Origin: Bacteroidia bacterium
GTDB lineage: Bacteria > Bacteroidota > Bacteroidia > CAILMK01 > JBBDIG01
Direction of reading: 5' to 3'
Assembly (NCBI GenBank): GCA_040880525.1
Contig: JBBDIG010000042.1
Coordinates: 1 to 64,000, forward strand
DNA: 64,000 nucleotides
Below, piece after piece: positions 3,300 through 54,709 of this stretch (positions within the stretch are counted from its first letter, which is position 1; each line of letters starts with the position of its first letter). Below the pieces are notes generated by a model, which saw only the letters and a list, made by a program, of their open reading frames with translations, made no database searches and was not told the DNA's origin. A program made the translations under genes and the position numbers.

Positions 3300-4109
3300 T
3301 TATTGCTGTTGGACGTTCAGCTCTGGTAACACATCCTCCGTTGCGTTTTCTGGTTTGATAAATAAACTATCCTCCATGTTTATGAAAGAAATGCTGCCAA
3401 GCCTGAGATGAGACAGGGCTTTTGTTACGTCCGCTTTCTCATTCCATTCCCACAACCTCCATTCCGTGGCAACCGGAATTTTATTGACCATCACAAACTC
3501 ATCGTATATTAAAGCGTGTGGATCATCCTCAGCATTCTCTTCCGGCTTACCATAGGTTACGATGTAAGCCAATGCTTTTAATCGTTTCGTTTCCTGATCC
3601 ATGTATGCAATGTACCAGTCATCCGGGGTATCACCTACTCCTTCATCAAAGGTCAATTTAGCAGCAGGAAGTTCGGCTCCCTGCAAAGTACGGGTTCCAA
3701 GATCCGTCAAATGTGAGCCGGGATCGTTGAGCTTATAAGGTGCAGCCAGGAAGTAGGGCCACGTGAGCAAATGGAACCTTGCCTTTTGAAAACCGGTATC
3801 CGGCACCACCCACGCCTTTTCGCCATCAAATACAGCAATGCTGCCGTTGTCCAGTTCAAACCGTGATTTACTGCCGTTCGTCTCCATATACATCCACCCT
3901 GCGAACCGAACTTCTTCGCCTGAAAAATAAGCTATCCGTGTTTTTAGCACCTGCTCTTGTTGCCATGCTTCCTTCCTGTGTGCTTCCTCTATGGGATCAG
4001 CCCAGGCCCTGCCGTCAGCAGCAGCCGGAACCTTGTTATCGCCACCCCCGGCATCACAGGCCGTAAGCGCAATGAGCAATCCGAACCAAACATTTTTTAT
4101 ATTCTTCAT
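3300..4109 (-). CDS. putative lipoprotein, DUF6503-like or LolA-like fold
   Basis: 269 residues. The ATG at 4109 gives MKNIKNVWFGLLIALTACDA, a good lipoprotein signal with the lipobox cysteine at about residue 18. A longer frame would put extra charged residues before it and was not used. The body (SRFELDNGSIAVFDGEKAWV, then a region with WPYFLAAPYKL) looks like the LolA/LppX-type half-barrel seen in many Bacteroidetes lipoproteins of the DUF6503 type; that assignment is from memory and tentative. It is probably anchored in the envelope. No operon partner; both neighbours are on the other strand. Confidence 0.6.
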   Translation of the reverse strand: MKNIKNVWFGLLIALTACDAGGGDNKVPAAADGRAWADPIEEAHRKEAWQQEQVLKTRIAYFSGEEVRFAGWMYMETNGSKSRFELDNGSIAVFDGEKAWVVPDTGFQKARFHLLTWPYFLAAPYKLNDPGSHLTDLGTRTLQGAELPAAKLTFDEGVGDTPDDWYIAYMDQETKRLKALAYIVTYGKPEENAEDDPHALIYDEFVMVNKIPVATEWRLWEWNEKADVTKALSHLRLGSISFINMEDSLFIKPENATEDVLPELNVQQQ

Positions 4110-26325: not shown

Positions 26326-28758
26326 ATGAAGAAAAGCAGACACCATAATTTTATCGACACGATTGATGAAATTGCTAGCATTGCCACTGAGAGGAAAATT
26401 GCACATCTCCATACTGAAGATGCCGTATTAAATGGTCGCATTATTACTGTCAACAATCAGGAACTTGTCCACTTTGGTTCATGCAGCTACCTTGGGCTGG
26501 AGGTAAACGATGAACTAAAGGAAGGAGCAATCGAAGCCGTCTTGAAATATGGTACTCAGTTCTCCTCCTCCCGTTCGTATATTGGTATTGGTTTATATAA
26601 CGAGCTAGAGACTCTTGTTAGTCAAATGTTTGGAAATGAAGTTGTAATTGCGCCTTCCACAACATTGGCCCATATTGCAGCTATTCCCGTTTTGGTTTCT
26701 GATGAAGATGCCATTATTCTCGACCAGCAGGTCCACATGAGCGTACAATCAGCCGTTCAGTTAACCAGGCATCGTGGCGTACATATAGAAGTGATCCGGC
26801 ACAACAGAATGGACAAGCTTGAGGAGCGGGTTATCGCCCTCAGCCAGAAACACGCTAAGATCTGGTACATGGCCGATGGTGTATATTCAATGTACGGAGA
26901 TTTTGCCCCCATTTATGAGATTGCGGCATTAATGGATAAATATGAGCAGCTTAATCTGTATGTAGATGATGCGCACGGAATGAGTTGCTTTGGAAAGAAT
27001 GGGCGCGGGTACATCCTTAATGAGGTGGAACAAACCGAGAAAATGGTGGTGACATCTTCTATGGCCAAAGCTTTTGGAACTGGCGGTGGCATTATGTGCT
27101 TTAAAAATAAGGCATGGAAGGATAAAGTAAAGAAATGCGGGGCCACCCTCATCTATTCCGGCCCCATTCAGCCTCCTATGCTTGGGGCTTCCATCGCTTC
27201 AGCTAGAATTCATTTATCAGACGAAATATACAGACTTCAGGATAATCTCCAGGAGCGTATACATTATTGTCATTCACTTCTGGAGGGCTACGGACTTCCT
27301 GTAATTTCAAATTCTAAAACACCCGTCTTTTTTGTAGGAGTAGGATTACCTAAAGTGGGGTATAACCTGGTGAAGCGACTGATGGAGGAGGGCCATTATA
27401 CCAACCTGGGAATTTTCCCGGCCGTAGCTATCAAGAACACAGGTATCCGATTTACAATTACAAACCACCACACCTTTCAGGATATTGAAAGGTTGGTGAG
27501 TAGCATTGCTGCAAACCTCCCCAGAGCATTGGAAGAGGAAAATCGCAATATATTCGATGTATATCAAGCATTTGGACTGAAGAGCCAACCAGGTGAGCAA
27601 CTCCTCCCCGCACCGGTCAAAAACAGCTCCTATAGTATTCAGCATGAACAGAGCATTGAAAATATTGACAGAAAACTTTGGAACACGCTCTTTGCCGGAC
27701 AGGGAACCTTTGACTGGGACGGAATGAAATTTATCGAAATGGCCTCTTCCGGAAATGAACTCCCTGAGCATAACTGGGAATTTCATTACTTCATAATCCG
27801 CAATATGGAAGGGAAAGTTGTGCTCGCTACCTTTTTCTCTTTAGCCTTATGGAAAGATGATATGCTTTCTCCGGCAGCTATTTCCAGGCAAGTAGAAGAG
27901 GCGAGACAAACAGACCCTTATTATCTTACGTCTAAAGTTCTTTCTATGGGGTCAATGGCTTCAGAAGGTAACCATCTCTACCTCAATAAGCAACAAGGCG
28001 ATTGGAAAGAAGCAATGGCGTTGTTGCTTGACACGGTTAGTGAATTACAGGAAAAAACGGGAGCCACCAGCGTGACCTTGCGGGATTTTAGTGGCGAAGA
28101 TGAAGAGCTCACTATATTTTTACAGGACGAAGGATTTGTGAAGATCACCATGCCGGAAACTCATGTGGTGAAGGAAATGACTTGGTCTGACACTGAAGAA
28201 TATCTTAATAGCCTCTCAAAGAGATCAAAGCGACATATAAAGTACGATGTGCTTCGCCATGAACACATGTTCGACATTGAAGTAAAACAGCAACTCAGCG
28301 AGGCCGAACGAGAAAAATTCTATGAGCTCTACCGGAATGTGAAGGACAAAAGTTACGATGTAAACGTATTTGCCTATCCTGAACGGCTCCTTGAGATTAT
28401 GAATGAATATGACAACTGGGAGTTCGTATGCATTAAGTTAAAACCAGAATTCGATGATCGCGCTGAACGGCAACCCATCGCCATGTTCTTCGGCTATCAT
28501 AATGACGATAGCTATTCCGCGCCCGTTGTGGGAATTGACTATGATTATCTTCACTCCCATAAGATTTACAAGCAGGCACTTTATCAGATGGTAAAAAGGG
28601 CTTGGCAGCTAAAGAAACAAAAGTGCTATCTGGGATTTACGGCTACTATGGAAAAGCAAAAGCTGGGTGCCATCGTAGAGAACCGTGTGGCTTACGTTCA
28701 GGCGAAGGATAATTATAATATGGCGGTATTGGGTATGATGAGTGCCGCAGGAAACTGA
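26326..28758 (+). CDS. AONS-family PLP acyltransferase fused to a GNAT domain
   Basis: 810 residues. The first 410 are an alpha-oxoamine synthase: FGSCSYLGLEVND, GTQFSSSRSYIG, YVDDAHGMSCFGKNGRG (Asp about 215, His about 217) and the PLP lysine in SSMAKAFGTGGG (Lys about 248). Such enzymes condense an amino acid with an acyl-CoA or acyl-ACP (serine palmitoyl-, cysteate acyl- or glycine acyltransferases). Residues 440-810 form a GNAT-like half with long alpha/beta stretches (SKRSKRHIKYDVL, FYELYRNVKDKSYDVNVFAY). In Bacteroidetes the fusion is a known annotation and may make sphingolipids or sulfonolipids; the substrate here is not readable. Flanked by two STAS-like paralogs. Confidence 0.88.
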   Translation: MKKSRHHNFIDTIDEIASIATERKIAHLHTEDAVLNGRIITVNNQELVHFGSCSYLGLEVNDELKEGAIEAVLKYGTQFSSSRSYIGIGLYNELETLVSQMFGNEVVIAPSTTLAHIAAIPVLVSDEDAIILDQQVHMSVQSAVQLTRHRGVHIEVIRHNRMDKLEERVIALSQKHAKIWYMADGVYSMYGDFAPIYEIAALMDKYEQLNLYVDDAHGMSCFGKNGRGYILNEVEQTEKMVVTSSMAKAFGTGGGIMCFKNKAWKDKVKKCGATLIYSGPIQPPMLGASIASARIHLSDEIYRLQDNLQERIHYCHSLLEGYGLPVISNSKTPVFFVGVGLPKVGYNLVKRLMEEGHYTNLGIFPAVAIKNTGIRFTITNHHTFQDIERLVSSIAANLPRALEEENRNIFDVYQAFGLKSQPGEQLLPAPVKNSSYSIQHEQSIENIDRKLWNTLFAGQGTFDWDGMKFIEMASSGNELPEHNWEFHYFIIRNMEGKVVLATFFSLALWKDDMLSPAAISRQVEEARQTDPYYLTSKVLSMGSMASEGNHLYLNKQQGDWKEAMALLLDTVSELQEKTGATSVTLRDFSGEDEELTIFLQDEGFVKITMPETHVVKEMTWSDTEEYLNSLSKRSKRHIKYDVLRHEHMFDIEVKQQLSEAEREKFYELYRNVKDKSYDVNVFAYPERLLEIMNEYDNWEFVCIKLKPEFDDRAERQPIAMFFGYHNDDSYSAPVVGIDYDYLHSHKIYKQALYQMVKRAWQLKKQKCYLGFTATMEKQKLGAIVENRVAYVQAKDNYNMAVLGMMSAAGN

Positions 28759-44691: not shown

Positions 44692-45672
44692 TTATTCAGC
44701 CTTTATTCTTCCGCCAAATATGCCGGCAAGGGCCAGGTAGTGGGGCAGGTGTTTTTGGTTGTAATTATACATTTTATCAAAAAATACAAACCGCCTTTTG
44801 AGCAGATCAGAAGATGTGGAGGTAGCATAGGGAACTCCGAAGCGGAAATTGTTCAGCCGGTTATTGAGCCGGTAAAGCTTCCTTCCGCCCAGCGCAGTAA
44901 TGAATGGAGGGATCATCACGCCCCGCCTTTCTATCTTCAGTTCTGCACGTTTATACAAACGGGCATGCTTTGAATATTGCATTTCGCGCACCGGCAGGTA
45001 CATCTGGAATTTCTCGAAAGCCCGTACACAGTAATGCTCAAGCTCCTGATGAAAATCCTGAAACCACTCCCCTACCATTTCGTTGGTGACTTTCCCGCTA
45101 AACCACCGATTCCGGTAGCTTATGAGTTGATTCACCATTTCATGCAAAGGACCGGAGGAAGTCCCCAAAAATTCCAGGTCGAACAGAATGGCTTTTACGC
45201 TGAGAAAAAGAGATCGGAGATTCAGAATGCCATAGTGGTGCTCCGTGGTACGGGAAATCAGGTTGGCCAGCAGAAATTCCAGGGCGATTTGCTCCTTTAG
45301 TTCTGTTTCCTCAGCAGGTTTCATCCTGGCCGGTTTAAAGCTTTCCTTTCCCCACAGCAACTTATAATTATGATAAAATGTGTACTGTTGCGATTCGCGG
45401 AGATGCGATTCTGAAATACCGAAGCAGGCGTGCGTAAAGAGGTACTGCCCCTTTTCTCCGAGCTTTTTCACGGGATTGAGGCCGGATCGCACATCATCTT
45501 TAAACACGGCAATTATATCAAGGTCTGAGATGCCCGGTGTTGTCATTCCTCCAATCTGGTAAACCGACAGTATTCCTTCCTGCTTTTGCAGCAATGCCCC
45601 AATCTCATCTATTACTTCATGATAATCCTGCAGTGAGCATTCCCTGGGTTGATTTATGATTTTATATCTCAT
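44692..45672 (-). CDS. nucleotidyltransferase-fold protein of the polysaccharide locus, second
   Basis: 326 residues. The NTase motif GGMTTPGISDLDIIAVF near residues 37-52 has the G-G then D-L-D metal site. The rest is helical and rich in aromatic residues and I do not recognise it (LFTHACFGISESHLRES, RRGVMIPPFITALGG). The ATG at 45672 overlaps the stop of the gene before it (ATGA); this favours it over a TTG at 45699. The substrate is unknown; by place it may act in the surface polysaccharide pathway. Confidence 0.7.
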   Translation of the reverse strand: MRYKIINQPRECSLQDYHEVIDEIGALLQKQEGILSVYQIGGMTTPGISDLDIIAVFKDDVRSGLNPVKKLGEKGQYLFTHACFGISESHLRESQQYTFYHNYKLLWGKESFKPARMKPAEETELKEQIALEFLLANLISRTTEHHYGILNLRSLFLSVKAILFDLEFLGTSSGPLHEMVNQLISYRNRWFSGKVTNEMVGEWFQDFHQELEHYCVRAFEKFQMYLPVREMQYSKHARLYKRAELKIERRGVMIPPFITALGGRKLYRLNNRLNNFRFGVPYATSTSSDLLKRRFVFFDKMYNYNQKHLPHYLALAGIFGGRIKAE

Positions 45673-46673
45673 GGCATCTTCTTCAGCATTAGATAACAAA
45701 ACGATTTTAGATTGTCATAAAATTCAGACGATAAGCGGGCTGACAGGTCAGGCGGAATTCCGGGGCCGGATTGCTTCTTTCTTCGCACCATCAGCGGATT
45801 GAGGCTCATCATTTCCTTCCGCTCCTTTTTGCTCATTTCGTAGTGCCAGTCTTTTCGAATGCGGCTCACCTCATCCATTATGAACCATTCATCCTTTGTA
45901 AAATCCTTTTTTGCCTCGCTAAAACTCTCTCGTTTATAAATTCCATTACCGGTTTCGGCCTGGACATATAAAGCGGGCAAAAGCATAAATTCACTGGTCA
46001 ACCCTTTTAATTGATACATCGTCTGCGGATAATCCCGCTTTTCCAGCTTGTTTATGATGCTGCCTGCCAGGTTTTTTAAGGGCGTAATATAATCTGCTTC
46101 TTTATTTAAATATAATTTCAAGTGCAAACCCTGGTCTGTAAGCAATGATTTGGCATTATCAAATAACTGATGCGGAAAATAAGTTTGCGGATAATGCTGC
46201 AAGTCGCTCTCTGTGAGCACAAACCATCCGTGGTGCTGAAGCGGATCGAACCGCTGCATGATGTACCGGGCGCGATGCAGCCGGGACGCAACTTTTGCCA
46301 GTTTCGCAGGATCGGACACCACGGAATCTTTAAGTATCACCAACGCATCAAAATCACTGTAGGCTATTTCCTCGCTAGTGCCCAGGCTTCCGTGAACATA
46401 CGCTCCGGCCAGCTCACCCTGTAAATGCATCAGCAGGAAATCCATCATTTCAAGAACAAAAGGATTTTCCCCTTTATAAATATCAATTGATTTTGGGATT
46501 GAATGGCCTTGCAGAGCGGGAGGATGATTTGTTCTGAACAATGAGGATATTGCTCTCGCGGCAATCCTGAAGTACAAGTGCGGATTGACCACTGCAGCAG
46601 CCATTTCTATTGGGGAAGAAGGCTGCAGATTAATATACTTCTGAAGCTTTTTTCTTGTAGCCGCCTCCATCAT
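45669..46673 (-). CDS. nucleotidyltransferase-fold protein of the polysaccharide locus, first
   Basis: 334 residues. AYVHGSLGTSEEIAYSDFDA with VIL near residues 88-110 is the NTase signature (GS...D-x-D). An N-terminal part of about 80 residues precedes it. It is only distantly like the next gene, sharing the fold, not close sequence. It is coupled by 4-base overlaps both to the sulfotransferase before it and to the second NTase after it. Function unknown; a pair of NTases next to a sulfotransferase is unusual. Confidence 0.7.
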   Translation of the reverse strand: MMEAATRKKLQKYINLQPSSPIEMAAAVVNPHLYFRIAARAISSLFRTNHPPALQGHSIPKSIDIYKGENPFVLEMMDFLLMHLQGELAGAYVHGSLGTSEEIAYSDFDALVILKDSVVSDPAKLAKVASRLHRARYIMQRFDPLQHHGWFVLTESDLQHYPQTYFPHQLFDNAKSLLTDQGLHLKLYLNKEADYITPLKNLAGSIINKLEKRDYPQTMYQLKGLTSEFMLLPALYVQAETGNGIYKRESFSEAKKDFTKDEWFIMDEVSRIRKDWHYEMSKKERKEMMSLNPLMVRRKKQSGPGIPPDLSARLSSEFYDNLKSFCYLMLKKMP

Positions 46674-47480: not shown

Positions 47481-48665
47481 TTAACAGTTGCCAATGCGCT
47501 GCATAAAGTTCTTCATCACCAATGCCCGCTTTTTAAAGGTGATCTCTTTCACATCTTCCAATCCTTTTTTTCCAATTCTCTCTCCTTCTTCCTTATTCTC
47601 AATCGCCTTTTGAATTCCGGAGATCAATGATTCCAGGTCTTCAGGATTTACGAATATCGCATTCTGCTCGTTCAGAACGTCCCTGGTTGCAGGATATTCG
47701 GGAGTGATAATAGGATTGCCTGCGAGCATGTATTCGCATACTTTATTGGGAAAATTATATTCCACAAAATGGTCGTCTTTAGTGTAATATGAAATCAATG
47801 CATCGGCAGCGGTCTGGTAATAAATGACTTCAGTATAGTCTACGATGTAGCCCGTTAAAGTAACGTTCTCCACCTTTCTTTCCCTGCACCACTTTTCGTA
47901 ATACGCTACCACATCCGGCTTGCCCCCCGTCAGTAGGAACTGGTATTGCGGAAGCCTTGCAGCGGCATCAAGGATAAAATGTGCTTCCCGCTGTGTTTTA
48001 AAGAGCTTGCCGGTATACACCACCAGCGGTTTTTTACCGGTGTATCCAATATGTTTGCGCGCCACTGCTTTGGATACTCTTGTTTTCAACTGGTGCTCAG
48101 TAATTGGATTCAGGGAAACTTCCATCCGGGCAGGGTCAAGATCAAGGTATTTCTCCAGGTGCTCGGTGATGGTAGAGTTGGTGCCGATTATTGCATCTGC
48201 ATTCCGGTATACCCAGGTAAACCGGCCTATCATCTTTATTTCATGTGCCCAATGAATTATGGTAAACTTCCGGGCCCGCTTAGGATACAGTTTCCGGATG
48301 AGCAAGTGCGGAATGAGCAACGAAGAATTCCTGGACATTACCATCACGCATTCATCACTGTTGCGGCCGGCTGCCAGTGCTTTCATAAAATGCCGGGAGT
48401 TCAGCATATTGATAATTGCAAAATGCTTTGCTCCTGCCACAATATCCTTAAAATTGGTATTGAGATAAGTGATCTTGAATTTGGTTTTTACGCCATACAT
48501 ATCAAATACCTCTTCCTTTTTCACATTGTCTTTCCGGTAAACATAGGGGACGATCAGTTCTACGTCTACGCCATTTTCTGCAAATCCTTCACAAATTCGC
48601 ATATCCCCGATCTGATTGGTGCGGGGGCGTAAAATGTCGTATTGCGTGTAGTAAAGTAATTTCAT
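47481..48665 (-). CDS. glycosyltransferase, GT4 type
   Basis: 394 residues. An N-terminal RIC-F-E sugar-acceptor domain (MRICEGFAENGVDVELIVPY), a GT-B C-terminal half with GKKPLVVYTGKLFKTQREA and FPNKVCEYMLAGNPIITPEY (the E-x7-E region). It transfers a sugar from a nucleotide donor while retaining the anomeric configuration. Part of the polysaccharide cluster, 25 bases before the sulfotransferase ATG. Confidence 0.9.
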   Translation of the reverse strand: MKLLYYTQYDILRPRTNQIGDMRICEGFAENGVDVELIVPYVYRKDNVKKEEVFDMYGVKTKFKITYLNTNFKDIVAGAKHFAIINMLNSRHFMKALAAGRNSDECVMVMSRNSSLLIPHLLIRKLYPKRARKFTIIHWAHEIKMIGRFTWVYRNADAIIGTNSTITEHLEKYLDLDPARMEVSLNPITEHQLKTRVSKAVARKHIGYTGKKPLVVYTGKLFKTQREAHFILDAAARLPQYQFLLTGGKPDVVAYYEKWCRERKVENVTLTGYIVDYTEVIYYQTAADALISYYTKDDHFVEYNFPNKVCEYMLAGNPIITPEYPATRDVLNEQNAIFVNPEDLESLISGIQKAIENKEEGERIGKKGLEDVKEITFKKRALVMKNFMQRIGNC

Positions 48666-48671
48666 TCTTAG

Positions 48672-50030
48672 TTATTTCAGTTCATTACCAATTTCAGATT
48701 GCAGGCTGTTTAATCGTTTATAGGTAAGGCCGGTGAATGCAATAATAATTATCATTTTAAGAACAAGATGCCCAATGGCAGCACCTTCGGCACCCATTGC
48801 CGGGATGAGATACCATGCCAGTCCGCCTCCGGCAGCAATGGCCACCGCATAGACATAAAACCTGAACTTAATAATGCCGAGGCTCTGGATCATTGAGAGA
48901 TTCCAGAAGAAAACGGAAGCCATCGTAGCTGCCATAAAAAGATAAAAGAAAGAGGCTGAAGCTCCGGCATATTCATCTCCATAAAACAGCGTGATGATCC
49001 ATTCATTTAAATAGAACATGCCCACCAAAAATACAAGCGAGGGCAGCAAGGATACGCCCGTGATACGGAAAAGCATCTTCTTTATGTCTCTGTATTTCCC
49101 TTTCGAGATTAAGGAGCTGAGTTGTGGGAAGATGGTGTATTTAAGCGGATCGGTAATGATGAGGATGGAAAATGCCAGCTTCTTCGCTACGGCATAGAGA
49201 CCAACTGCAGCGGGTCCGGCCAAAGCCGCCAGCAGAAGCACATCGCCTTTGTTCATGATGGTGATGACGGATTGCCCTACAGAATTCCCAAAGGTAAACT
49301 GTGTCATTTCCTTTCGTTCGGCACTGATTAGGGCCATTTTGCTTTTTGCATAGGGCAACAGTTCTGCACGCAACTCCCACATAGCCATCCCATTGATGAT
49401 AAGACTGTTGAGCAGCTTAGCCGCGATTACAGCTACAAAAAAATAGGTGAGATTTCGGGGGTACAGGTAGATGGTGAACGCAATAATGCTGAATTCCACC
49501 ACCGCCATCACAATTTGAACGAGGGAGTTAAATTTAAATTTATCGAAAATCCTGAGAAGGGCTGTGCTAAGATTATCAAAAAGGAAAACACAGGCTACCA
49601 TTGCATAAAAGACGATAAACCAATAAAGGCCATCCTGCTCAATAAAGGTATCATAAGAAAAGGTGATCAGGATCGCGATGATAAAAACGCTGGCAACCGC
49701 AGAAATGAGGGAAACAAACGCACCGGCTTTGAGAAGCGCCACCAGTTGATCGGTGCGGTTCCGGGTACGGAATGCTGCTCCGAACTTTATCAGGCTGGTC
49801 GGCACGTTAAAGTTGAAGAACTGCTGAACCGTCTCTACAAATGCTACTACAATAGCATACGTACCATATAGCTCTGCTCCCAATCCTCTTGCCACCACAA
49901 TAGACCGAAGAAATACCAGCCCCGTCCTGAAGAGGTTAGCCATCAAAACCCATGAACTGTTCTTGATGAGTATTTTTGATTGCTTATCAAATAGCCTGGC
50001 AGGAGAGAACTTCTTGGCTACAAACTTCAC
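48672..50030 (-). CDS. polysaccharide flippase, Wzx type
   Basis: 452 residues with about 12-14 membrane helices and no catalytic motif. The N-terminus (SSWVLMANLFRTGLVFLRSI then VVARGLGAELYGTYAIVVAF) matches the MATE/MOP-type polysaccharide exporters. It should carry lipid-linked repeat units across the inner membrane. The start is a GTG at 50030; no ATG fits the first helix better. It precedes the GT4 gene by 6 bases. Confidence 0.9.
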   Translation of the reverse strand: MKFVAKKFSPARLFDKQSKILIKNSSWVLMANLFRTGLVFLRSIVVARGLGAELYGTYAIVVAFVETVQQFFNFNVPTSLIKFGAAFRTRNRTDQLVALLKAGAFVSLISAVASVFIIAILITFSYDTFIEQDGLYWFIVFYAMVACVFLFDNLSTALLRIFDKFKFNSLVQIVMAVVEFSIIAFTIYLYPRNLTYFFVAVIAAKLLNSLIINGMAMWELRAELLPYAKSKMALISAERKEMTQFTFGNSVGQSVITIMNKGDVLLLAALAGPAAVGLYAVAKKLAFSILIITDPLKYTIFPQLSSLISKGKYRDIKKMLFRITGVSLLPSLVFLVGMFYLNEWIITLFYGDEYAGASASFFYLFMAATMASVFFWNLSMIQSLGIIKFRFYVYAVAIAAGGGLAWYLIPAMGAEGAAIGHLVLKMIIIIAFTGLTYKRLNSLQSEIGNELK

Positions 50031-50107: not shown

Positions 50108-52516
50108 TCAGGCTTTAGCTTTTGCCTTGCGCGAGAATAGTTTTAAACCCTTCCTCCGTTCCTTCTTCTCTGAGGAATTTCCATATCCGTAACCGTAGCC
50201 ATAGTTCAGGTTTGAGCCAGAGGTCAAATCATTTACAAGAATGCCAATATTCTTCAGTTCTCCTCTTGCGAAATATTCATTGATCACTGCCATAGACTGT
50301 ACTTTAGTTACGTTCTGCCGGATCATATAGATCATAATATCAGCATTCTTGGCCACCATCGGTGAATCTGCCACAAGTCCAAGGGGAGACGAATCCAGAA
50401 CGATATAATCATATCGTTCTTTCAGTTTGCTCACCAATTCATCAAATCTCTTGCTGCCGAGCAGTTCAGCCGGGTTGGGAGGAACAGGACCCGCCACAAC
50501 CAGATCCAGGTTAGGATCATGGGTAGTGGTTAAAATATCATCAAGATCAGCACGGTAGCTCAAATAATCGCTTAAGCCCTTTTCAGCGGTTATCTTCAAG
50601 TCCATCACCATGCGGGGTTTTCTCAGGTCTGTTTCAATGAGCGCCACCTTTTGATTCCCCAGGGCAAGAATATTTGCCAGGCTGCCGGAGCAGAAGGTTT
50701 TGCCTTCGCTGAAGCTTGCAGATGTTACCATGATCACAGGACTTTCAATATTCCTGATAAAGTACTGGAGATTGGTCTTTACAAACCGGAATGCCTCCGC
50801 CATCACTGACTGGGGTCTGGGCTTTACAAGCAGCGAAGGCTCTCCATGGCTCGAAGGCACTGTACCCAAAATAGGAATGGTGGTACCTTCAGTTACCTGA
50901 TCCAGGGTTCTCACTTTATTATCCATTACATCAAACAGCACCACGCCAATCACCGGAATGAGCAATCCTGCGATGAGGCCTATTACATAGTTCAGGGATT
51001 TGTTTGTAGCAAGAGGAGGCTGCCCAAAATCCTTGGCTTTGTCCAGTATCCGGTGGTTAGAAGAATTGGAAGCTATCGTTATTCCGGTTTCAGCGCGTTT
51101 CTCGCTAAGAAAGCTCACCAATTTATCATTTAACTCAAATTTCCTTTTCAGGTCAATATATTCCTGCTCATTCTTAGGCACGTTGCGCAGTTGACCTTCC
51201 AACTGCCCAATACGCCTTGATAGCTGCGAAATTGTGATCTCATTGGAACTCAAGGCATTTTTTACATTCTCCTCCAGCACCCGCTTGGTATACTGCATTT
51301 CATCCTTTTTCTTTTGCAGCACCTCATCGGTTTTCTTTCCGATAATAGAGCTGTAGGATGATGCCTCGCTGCTCTGGTCACGCAGTTTCTGAAGAATATC
51401 CATTATCTGCGTTTCATTGACTCCCACCATGGAAGGAGAAACAATATCAGCATAATTATCATGGGTACGCAGATAGTTCTGAAGGTATAAGAGATACCGA
51501 TTGGTGAGTTCAGCCGTGGCCCTTTCATTCTCCATATTCAATAACTGCTGAATCAGGTTGCTGGATTCAACTCCCAGATCTATCACCCGCTTTGTAGACC
51601 GGAATTCCGCGAAATTCGTTTCCGCTTCCTCTAAACTATCTTTCATACCTACCAACTCGCTATCAATAAAATCCAACGCATTCCTGCCAATTGCATTTTT
51701 TTCATGCAAATCAAATTCGATATATTTCTGTGCCAATGAATTAAGGAAGTCTGCAACTTTGGATTTGTTGGTACCCGGCAGGTAAAGCTCCATGATTGAA
51801 GCGTTTGTTTCTATTTTCAGTGCAGAACGGTAACTGGAAACAAGCTGATTAATATTGTTAAAAGTAAAGTAATAATTTTCTCCTTTTAACCTTTTCCCGC
51901 TTTCTTCAGCCGGCAACAACAGCCTGAAGCGAAAATAGTCCGTTTCAATCCAGTCGCCAAGACGGAAGGTGTTAGAGAATTTATACTCGCGGAGTATCTT
52001 CTCGGTTTCATCAGTCCTGTAGTCTATCGTCTTGATATCTTCGGATTTTATCTCCAGCCGGAATTGGTCCTCGCTTTGGAAATGTATTTGGATTGGCGAA
52101 CCCAGCAGTTGAACGTGGCTCGTATCATAGTCAACTATAAAGGGCAGACTGCTATACAATTCCAGCTTCTTTGATCCATGATCAGCAAAATAGGTAATCT
52201 CCAATCCCAGGCTTCTGACCGTTTGCTCTATCAATAGCCTGGACTTGACGATCTCCATTTCGTTATCAATAGATGACATTTTATTGCCGGGAAGCTCCAT
52301 CTCCAGAATGTCTTCCGGAGTACTTACGTTATTCACCAGAATGGTGGTGGACAGTTGGTATACCGGAGTGATGTCCTTGTTTATAAAATACACCAGCACC
52401 AGGGCTGCGATTATGCATGGGATAATTATCTTCCACCGCTTTATAATCCTGGTAATGAAATACTTGATATCCTGCGTATCTGTATTCTTAGTCTCCTGAA
52501 AATTCCTGTTTTGCAT
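50108..52516 (-). CDS. Wzc-type polysaccharide co-polymerase and tyrosine autokinase
   Basis: 802 residues from the ATG at 52516, 5 bases after the Wza stop. The N-terminal Wzz domain with one helix near residue 32, a long coiled coil, a second helix (about 500-520, YVIGLIAGLLIPVIGVVLF), then the kinase with a Walker A-like SASFSEGKTFCSGSLA, a Walker A' region (VALIETDLRKPRM) and a tyrosine-rich tail NYGYGYGYG. It controls chain length and export of the polymer together with Wza. An in-frame TTG at 52525 was rejected. Confidence 0.94.
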   Translation of the reverse strand: MQNRNFQETKNTDTQDIKYFITRIIKRWKIIIPCIIAALVLVYFINKDITPVYQLSTTILVNNVSTPEDILEMELPGNKMSSIDNEMEIVKSRLLIEQTVRSLGLEITYFADHGSKKLELYSSLPFIVDYDTSHVQLLGSPIQIHFQSEDQFRLEIKSEDIKTIDYRTDETEKILREYKFSNTFRLGDWIETDYFRFRLLLPAEESGKRLKGENYYFTFNNINQLVSSYRSALKIETNASIMELYLPGTNKSKVADFLNSLAQKYIEFDLHEKNAIGRNALDFIDSELVGMKDSLEEAETNFAEFRSTKRVIDLGVESSNLIQQLLNMENERATAELTNRYLLYLQNYLRTHDNYADIVSPSMVGVNETQIMDILQKLRDQSSEASSYSSIIGKKTDEVLQKKKDEMQYTKRVLEENVKNALSSNEITISQLSRRIGQLEGQLRNVPKNEQEYIDLKRKFELNDKLVSFLSEKRAETGITIASNSSNHRILDKAKDFGQPPLATNKSLNYVIGLIAGLLIPVIGVVLFDVMDNKVRTLDQVTEGTTIPILGTVPSSHGEPSLLVKPRPQSVMAEAFRFVKTNLQYFIRNIESPVIMVTSASFSEGKTFCSGSLANILALGNQKVALIETDLRKPRMVMDLKITAEKGLSDYLSYRADLDDILTTTHDPNLDLVVAGPVPPNPAELLGSKRFDELVSKLKERYDYIVLDSSPLGLVADSPMVAKNADIMIYMIRQNVTKVQSMAVINEYFARGELKNIGILVNDLTSGSNLNYGYGYGYGNSSEKKERRKGLKLFSRKAKAKA

Positions 52517-52521
52517 CAGAA

Positions 52522-53331
52522 TCAATTATTATTAAGAATGTTATAAAAGAGCAAAATGGGAGTAGTAAAGGAGAGGACGGTGAGGGCGATCGTAAACCCT
52601 GATGTTCTTGAACCGATTATTCGCGTAATGGTCATAGGCTCCACATAAATTATATCGTCTGCTCTGATGTAAAAAAACTCCGAGGAAAGGAATTCCCGCT
52701 TGGTAAGGTCCAAAGTATGAACAGTAATGGTATCTCCCGTTGTTCGCAAAAGCTTTACCTTTTTTCTCCTGGCTGTCTCCAGCAAATCCCCCGTTTCAGC
52801 AATTGCATCGAAGATTGAAACCTGCTCCTTAAAAAAAGTATATTGCCCCGGCAGCCTTACCTCTCCCAAAATGGTTACCCTGGTTCCGGGTATTCTTACG
52901 GTTACAAAAGCTCCTTTATATTGCTGCGAAATCGAATCCTGAAGTTCTTTTTCCAGTTCCTCCACACTTTTGCCATCCACAAAATATTTCCCAAAAAGCG
53001 GCAGCTCTATATAACCTTCCCGGTCCACCGTATAGCCATTCATGTAAAACTGTGCATCGCTAAAGGCAACTCCCGTACCCGTCCGGTTTTGATAGACTCT
53101 CTTTAATATATCATTCGTCTCCTCGTAAAGAGAGGATAGCTGAACGAACAACATATCATTTGCCCGGATAATGTATGAGTTCTGCTGATGGGGATTTACA
53201 TAAGTGGTCTTCCCTTTTTCATCGCCTTTTGCCTGGAGATAAACAATCTTCCTGTTGGAGACGCAACCAGACATAAGAAATGAACCTGCTATTAGAAGGA
53301 GCAGGATGATCCTGAAGTGCTTAATTTCCAT
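52522..53331 (-). CDS. polysaccharide export lipoprotein, Wza/BexD type
   Basis: 269 residues. Lipoprotein signal (LLLIAGSFLMSGC), the poly-export domain (YIIRANDMLFVQLSSLYEE, DREGYIELPLFGKYFVDG) and an SLBB domain (TRVTILGEVRLPGQYTFF). C-terminal helix about 248-266. It forms the outer-membrane export channel in the family. Upstream of the Wzc gene, same direction. A TATTTTTG at 53434-53441 (minus strand) may be its -7 element. Confidence 0.93.
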   Translation of the reverse strand: MEIKHFRIILLLLIAGSFLMSGCVSNRKIVYLQAKGDEKGKTTYVNPHQQNSYIIRANDMLFVQLSSLYEETNDILKRVYQNRTGTGVAFSDAQFYMNGYTVDREGYIELPLFGKYFVDGKSVEELEKELQDSISQQYKGAFVTVRIPGTRVTILGEVRLPGQYTFFKEQVSIFDAIAETGDLLETARRKKVKLLRTTGDTITVHTLDLTKREFLSSEFFYIRADDIIYVEPMTITRIIGSRTSGFTIALTVLSFTTPILLFYNILNNN

Positions 53332-53596: not shown

Positions 53597-54709
53597 CTAC
53601 TTGCTGCGTGCCTGCCTGGCAACTATATTATAAATAGCCTTCCAAAAATATTTTATGTCCGTCAGTATCGGATTTTTTTGATAGGCTCTTAAATATCTCA
53701 ATTCAGATTGCTGTATTTCTTCCAGCGTTTCAGGCATGTCTACATAGAACGGAGGAATCAGGCCGGGTTTAAATTTCAGCCTTTCTTCCTGCAGTTCCGG
53801 GCTGTAAAGGCTGAGGTAATGACTGCTCAGCGGCCTTACACCTACCAATTTCATCTCTCCCTTCAATAGATTCCATACCATTGGCAGTTCATCCAGCCAA
53901 AACTTCCGCAGCACCTTGCCGGCAGCAGAAACCCTGAAGTCCTCTTTGAATTTCCCTCCTTTGTCGAGGTTATTCATCTGATAAATGTATTCCTGCAAAT
54001 ATTCGGAATAGGCATACATGGTCCGCAGTTTATAAACCAGGATCGGCTTCCCGTTCTTGCCTATTCGTTTCATCTTGAAAATAGGACCATAAGAGGCATT
54101 CTTATCGAAAGTAGGTTCCTTTACCTTCTCTACTACATAATACTTTTTATATCCAATAATGCGCTGATCAACAATCTTAAAACCATTTTTATATAACCGG
54201 CCTAGCGTTTCTGTATTCGAAATGACCTGGTTCCGTCCAGCCGTCATTTTAAAGTAAAGGCTACGGGTAAAACTAAGCTTTGGACATATCCTTTTGAATA
54301 CAAAATCGCAGCTATAATAGAGACGCGCATACGTGGTGTGAAACTTATCCAAAATCCGTTGCTTCCTGAGTGAATATGTTTCTGCACAACAAATGAAGCG
54401 GCCACCGGTAGAGAGCTTTTCATTAACCGTCTCAAAGAAATGGTTAATGTCACTTATGTCATTGATACGTTTAAGGTTGACTATATTCTGGTAGTAGGCC
54501 TGGGGTAGATTCCGGATATTGAAAGCGGTTCTGGTCTTGAGAACACAGGTGTATGGTGAATCAGTATCCACATGAGCAGATATGTAATCTACGATTTCCG
54601 AATCAGAGTCAAAAGCTATCTGTTTCTCAATGCCTTGTTCAGCCGCAATGTCCATTTCCAGTGCATTGGCCACAAAGCGATCCTCTTCCGTTGTAAATAC
54701 TACTCCCAT
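53597..54709 (-). CDS. sugar transferase with a methyltransferase-like N-terminus and no membrane helix
   Basis: 370 residues. The C-terminal part (about 205-370) is a bacterial sugar-1-phosphate transferase: RIGKNGKPILVYKLRTM, the catalytic DE of FWLDELPMVWNLLKGEM, LVGVRPLSSHY and FKPGLIPP. The usual KR-x-FDI membrane helix before this is missing; the domain starts at YGPIFKMKRIG. The first 195 residues resemble a SAM-methyltransferase fold in their order (NLKRINDISDINHFFETVNE, LSTGGRFICC, YKNGFKIVDQRIIG) but lack a clear SAM loop. Classic members load the first sugar phosphate onto undecaprenyl phosphate; here the membrane link is unclear. First gene of the polysaccharide locus. Confidence 0.8.
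   Translation of the reverse strand: MGVVFTTEEDRFVANALEMDIAAEQGIEKQIAFDSDSEIVDYISAHVDTDSPYTCVLKTRTAFNIRNLPQAYYQNIVNLKRINDISDINHFFETVNEKLSTGGRFICCAETYSLRKQRILDKFHTTYARLYYSCDFVFKRICPKLSFTRSLYFKMTAGRNQVISNTETLGRLYKNGFKIVDQRIIGYKKYYVVEKVKEPTFDKNASYGPIFKMKRIGKNGKPILVYKLRTMYAYSEYLQEYIYQMNNLDKGGKFKEDFRVSAAGKVLRKFWLDELPMVWNLLKGEMKLVGVRPLSSHYLSLYSPELQEERLKFKPGLIPPFYVDMPETLEEIQQSELRYLRAYQKNPILTDIKYFWKAIYNIVARQARSK

Follow-up and report, generated by a model that had tools for sequence, protein, structure and literature searches.

Background

The described systems closest to the locus reported here are the small monotopic phosphoglycosyl transferase (PGT) PglC of Campylobacter (PDB 8e37, 8g1n) and the large monotopic PGTs WbaP and WcaJ (PDB 8t53, 9s7s), which combine PF13727 with PF02397. 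A reentrant membrane helix (RMH) has been stated for all members of the PglC-type superfamily (PMC10519829). In PglC this helix packs against three amphipathic helices at the membrane interface, and Lys7 of the RMH pairs with Asp169; the K7A variant is inactive and the Asp169 equivalent is needed for activity (PMC6133551). The RMH is regarded as essential in PglC (PMC10519829, PMC6133551). Arg145 of PglC has been proposed to bind undecaprenyl phosphate (PMC10519829), and the DUF of WbaP binds uridine nucleotides and mediates dimerisation (PMC10942596). A third group to be considered is that of the class I methyltransferases whose substrates are membrane lipids (UbiG/Coq3, Coq5 and CMAS), among which UbiG possesses an insert that binds membrane lipid (PMC4796655).

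The protein described below resembles PglC in its core fold (Foldseek E 7.7e-9), its catalytic dyad and the residues R88, R112 and D169. It differs in having no RMH, no Lys-Arg or Ser-Pro motif and no R145, and also in the addition of an N-terminal domain (N-domain), a Trp at position 91, a Glu for D157 and an aromatic-rich C-terminal helix. The best explanation, for which a probability of about 0.58 is estimated, is that it is an active initiating (priming) PGT of a Wzx/Wza/Wzc-type exopolysaccharide cluster, belonging to an RMH-less PglC/WbaP-type subfamily and docked peripherally on the membrane.

Identification of the gene and its family

The gene lies within a 64-kb window, this being the whole stretch of DNA that was analysed. 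Its features are as follows.

53597..54709, minus strand: RMH-less sugar-1-phosphate transferase gene, 370 aa, ATG start, no transmembrane (TM) segment
54125..54598, minus strand: methyltransferase-like N-domain, residues ~38-195, SAM-binding half missing (AlphaFold2, Foldseek, weak CMAS match)
54242..54376, minus strand: inserted helices between beta5 and alphaE, residues 112-156 (AlphaFold2), a proposed membrane-facing element
53621..54085, minus strand: catalytic core, residues 209-363, matching Bac_transf from profile position 35, with PglC-type catalytic residues conserved
53888..53902, minus strand: interfacial segment FWLDE, residues 270-274, with Trp at PglC position 91 in 83 of 85 family members
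53888..53893, minus strand: Asp273-Glu274 dyad (D93-E94 of PglC), in 85 of 85 family members
53618..53671, minus strand: C-terminal amphipathic helix, residues 347-364, with Asp351 (D169 of PglC) and aromatic enrichment

The Pfam model Bac_transf matched residues 209-363 over profile positions 35-178 of 179 (E=3.4e-27), and polyprenyl glycosylphosphotransferase models of NCBIfam also matched, all below threshold. In the four other Bac_transf proteins of this genome (two of 472-476 aa and two of 208-239 aa) the match starts at profile position 1. A frame error or truncation of the 370-aa ORF was ruled out, as the frame is open and homologues are of equal length. Both the Pfam match, which is above cut-off, and Foldseek matches to PglC and WbaP place the core fold in the PglC-type superfamily.

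From 84,980 species genomes scanned, at least 573 relatives or candidates were obtained, and the best 80 loci were analysed. Nearly all of these 80 belong to Bacteroidota; the remainder are a few MAGs of Ignavibacteria and Chlorobiota, plus a single record labelled as an archaeon. The joining of this N-domain to a PGT core, already remarked on in the initial annotation, was met again at no fewer than 80 homologous loci and is therefore more than chance. Bac_transf was matched by all 85 aligned members. Among 60 Bacteroidia genomes drawn as a sample, Bac_transf matches starting at positions 33-35 were found, among the matches listed, in 10 genomes (G000, G013, G014, G023, G033, G042, G046, G052, G054 and G060), and the genomes matched by an N-domain profile were the same ones (10/10 both ways, again among the matches listed). 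N-domain and RMH-less core are obligate partners. The N-domain was matched in 17 of the 119 Bacteroidia genomes sampled, with no stand-alone N-domain among these 17 matches, and in 23 of 296 genomes sampled across the phylum; the latter figure includes a weak match (L174) that was rejected as a family member, being an unrelated oxidoreductase. Annotation or searches based on the RMH would miss this family of predicted priming enzymes. Across the phylum sample, the only short N-domain ORF (247 aa) is found at locus L163 (genome G292), where two family members lie in tandem (1906-2985 and 3331-4071) and the contig ends within the second.

Conservation of the catalytic core

The initial annotation had read the catalytic core as complete, and this reading held: KLRTM (residues 227-231), LDELP (272-276), VRPLS (291-295) and KPGL (314-317) are all present, with D273, E274, R268, R292, K227 and M231 among the catalytic residues. 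Equivalents of PglC R47, K59, M63, R79, R88, D93, E94, N100, R112, P113, G135 and Y160 are found in 84-85 of the 85 members, and that of D169 in 79/85 when aligned to PglC. As the 85 members are diverse, this conservation indicates purifying selection on catalysis. It also speaks strongly against a catalytically dead relict or pseudoenzyme, which is considered highly improbable even though an element required for the activity of PglC has been lost (PMC6133551) and the genome offers four canonical PGTs as alternatives. Enzymatic activity is thus probable, with phosphosugar transfer to polyprenyl phosphate as the predicted function.

Several other positions have changed with respect to PglC and are fixed or nearly so, namely D157 to Glu (85/85), R145 to Pro (82/85), S91 to Trp (83/85) and Q97 to Met (81/85). 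Following the KPG motif, a conserved (L/C)IPPxxxDxPxT motif replaces the stretch that contains Arg145 in PglC; at this position, Arg is present in 9 of 21 canonical enzymes. This replacement, together with the loss of the RMH, could be taken to mean that the acceptor is something other than membrane-embedded undecaprenyl phosphate, such as another lipid or a soluble or protein-bound acceptor. That is quite unlikely, however, as R88, the second Arg proposed to bind the acceptor, is kept in 84/85 members, a TM bundle is kept in 50/80 relatives, and the genes lie within Wzx/Wza/Wzc clusters with no further PGT nearby.

Absence of the reentrant membrane helix

The absence of a membrane helix from this sugar transferase, as first annotated, was confirmed. 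Profile positions 1-34 of Bac_transf have no counterpart in the protein, no RMH is present in its AlphaFold2 model, and a membrane helix in residues 150-210, which would have contradicted the annotation, was not found. In each of 85 homologues, the Kyte-Doolittle mean over 19 residues peaks at 1.43 or less across the N-domain and core, whereas the RMHs of 22 canonical enzymes have means of at least 2.33, with no overlap between the two sets. When family members were read one by one, the Bac_transf match began at profile positions 31-36. Loss of the RMH is a trait of the whole family, seen in every member examined. Of the salt bridge between Lys7 and Asp169 in PglC, the 370-aa protein retains the Asp (D351) and lacks the Lys.

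An argument against the best explanation comes from PglC: with the K7A variant inactive and the Asp169 equivalent required (PMC6133551), losing the RMH and having nothing in its stead should abolish activity. The family lacks a feature by which the monotopic PGTs are defined, and is very probably a variant that works like one. It is a widespread, unnamed family that departs from the published universality of the RMH (PMC10519829), although it may have been noticed earlier in surveys of the superfamily. With its catalytic residues intact, such a natural family offers a direct test of what the RMH is needed for, and its soluble-looking members offer material for structural work.

Structure of the N-terminal domain

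The N-terminal ~195 residues had been described as methyltransferase-like without a SAM loop, and the structural analysis agreed. An AlphaFold2 model built from 85 sequences reached a pLDDT of 86 and a pTM of 0.79, with a pLDDT of about 90 or higher over most of the N-domain. Foldseek with this model returned PglC and WbaP first (through the core), followed by class I methyltransferases (Coq5, CmoA and others). Nearly all matches listed after the PGTs were methyltransferases, with TM-scores that are low because about half of the methyltransferase fold is missing. The structure comparison of a relative with four TM segments agreed with that of the TM-less protein. No known fold unrelated to methyltransferases was found for this region.

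By our own reading of the model, the strands at residues 54-57, 73-81, 99-109, 177-185 and 188-195 correspond to beta3, beta4, beta5, beta6 and beta7. The modelled domain would thus consist of the beta3/beta4-alphaD-beta5...beta6-beta7 part of the fold, with the SAM-binding half (beta1-alphaA-beta2) missing. The glycine-rich SAM motif I is likewise lacking, a GxGxG-type motif being present in only 1/85 members. CMAS was matched weakly by 13/85 members. A profile of the N-domain gave no significant match to E. coli UbiG or Cfa with hhalign, so its methyltransferase ancestry rests mainly on fold; against PDB sequences, the profile matched a single methyltransferase at E=0.4. In summary, the fold of the N-domain appears to be that of UbiG/Coq3, Coq5 and CMAS, and its insert seems to sit where UbiG has the membrane-binding one, after the Gly-Gly strand and before the next long helix. 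Unlike these enzymes, it has neither SAM motif I nor the first strands, and it is never found alone. In one divergent member (L173:2348-3643), a winged-helix-like N-terminus as in the dimerisation domains of O-methyltransferases was recognised by eye; it has no Pfam match.

Transmembrane bundles among relatives

The 370-aa protein represents a TM-less form without a four-TM bundle. A fused N-terminal 4-TM bundle is present in 50 and absent in 30 of the best 80 of at least 573 relatives, and a third form of 648-684 aa carries two tandem copies of the bundle, giving 8 TM segments (L164-L168, L177 and L178). On a quick tree, TM state required nine changes by parsimony, of which supported branches force one; support is weak and the tree is unrooted, so it gives no direction of change. 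Two TM-less members (L169:2153-3574 and L170:2888-4285) have an N-terminal extension of ~130 aa, that of L169 resembling a transposase HTH (HTH_Tnp_1, E 3e-4, below cut-off).

The bundle of most relatives shows weak homology to that of the canonical large PGTs (profile match at E about 1e-4). The window protein shares the core with WbaP and WcaJ but has neither TM bundle nor RMH, and the methyltransferase-like domain replaces PF13727. No PF13727 precedes its core, and this model was matched anywhere in only 7/48 of the 4-TM relatives. As the N-domain sits between TM bundle and core, the position of the WbaP DUF, it might be a regulatory or dimerisation domain in place of PF13727, concerned with UMP sensing or dimer contact and not with docking, membrane contact being made by the core helices and any TM bundle. 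The 4-TM relatives, already anchored by their bundle, fit such a role. It nevertheless seems unlikely, as the N-domain is restricted to RMH-less cores, a hint that its role has to do with the helix they lack, and its most interface-favourable part is the insert described below.

The initial annotation had also raised the idea of a separate small membrane partner. This was not borne out: no recurring or bundle-like multi-TM ORF of less than 260 aa adjoins the 30 TM-less homologues, no small multi-TM gene adjoins the family gene in the 64-kb window, and most relatives carry a fused bundle instead, in some cases duplicated. A related proposal is that the TM-less form depends for its function on a complex with an integral membrane protein, for which the neighbouring Wzc or Wzx would be examples. 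Wza and/or Wzc do follow closely behind several TM-less members (that of the window, L090, L101, L103, L126 and L130), but many others are located away from either gene, and with no dedicated small partner beside the 30 TM-less members this proposal is rather unlikely.

Proposed mode of membrane association

The preferred reading of peripheral docking draws on three elements of the protein. Firstly, the most interface-favourable 19-residue window of the 370-aa protein (residues 127-145) falls in the N-domain insert, modelled as helices 112-122, 125-144 and 146-156. The insert has the consensus YYxxDFxxKRxxPK...YF (more fully YYxxDFxxKRVFPK...IYF), and its R140 is present in 84/85 members. Taken by itself, the insert helix has no significant hydrophobic moment (p=0.11). 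Secondly, the helix before the dyad has a Wimley-White sum of -1.67 in the family versus +0.73 in 22 canonical enzymes, and the position occupied by Trp in FWLDE is Ser, Lys or Arg in canonical enzymes. Thirdly, the C-terminal helices are amphipathic (p about 0.01-0.03), with 5.6 aromatic residues in the C-terminal helix versus 2.5 in canonical enzymes.

The aromatic interfacial helices of the core, the interface-favourable insert and the precedent of UbiG make peripheral docking the most economical mechanism. The TM-less form would sit peripherally on the membrane, held by the aromatic-rich core helices (the FWxDE segment and the C-terminal helices) and by the inserted helices of the N-domain, the latter in a manner that may resemble UbiG, whose insert occupies the corresponding part of the fold. 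A further probable role of the N-domain is to brace the core at the place of the RMH, and a basic residue such as R140 may stand in for Lys7 of PglC as the partner of D351. Docking by core helices and insert together is suggested by these properties, and the insert could instead be a buried lid. The more general proposal, that this RMH-less lineage works by means of a repurposed, SAM-less methyltransferase domain with a lipid-facing insert, the RMH being dispensable for the chemistry, is put forward tentatively, at somewhat short of even odds.

Genomic context

The gene is followed downstream by genes for polysaccharide export and assembly.

52522..53331, minus strand: Wza-type polysaccharide export lipoprotein, the next gene downstream (Pfam Poly_export 9.3e-13, SLBB)
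50108..52525, minus strand: Wzc-type chain-length regulator and tyrosine autokinase (Pfam Wzz, GNVR, AAA_31; NCBIfam TIGR01007 over cut-off)
48672..50030, minus strand: Wzx-type flippase (Pfam Polysacc_synt 2.3e-16)
47481..48665, minus strand: GT4-type glycosyltransferase (Pfam Glyco_trans_1_4 1.3e-14)

A sulfotransferase gene likewise lies downstream on the same strand. No canonical PGT was found elsewhere in the window, nor within ~8 kb of the family gene in any of 80 loci (BLASTP to reference enzymes, where contig sequence reached that far). As about one would be expected by chance, this zero is supporting and not decisive for the role of priming enzyme.

It should also be noted that the polysaccharide cluster contains two tandem genes for proteins of ~335 aa (44692-45699 and 45669-46673, both on the minus strand), which have no match in Pfam or NCBIfam and show nucleotidyltransferase-like motifs (GSLGTSEEIAYSDFD; GGMTTPGISDLDI). 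A secreted-looking protein of ~540 aa recurs near the family gene, usually adjoining it, in 40/80 loci (e.g. L036:4812-6431); a Wzi-like label for it was unconfirmed, as Pfam gave no match. A DUF354 protein is found near the family gene in 22/80 loci (e.g. L041:4706-5827). Elsewhere in the window (26326-28758, plus strand), an 810-aa fusion of a class I/II aminotransferase with a GNAT-like domain was observed.
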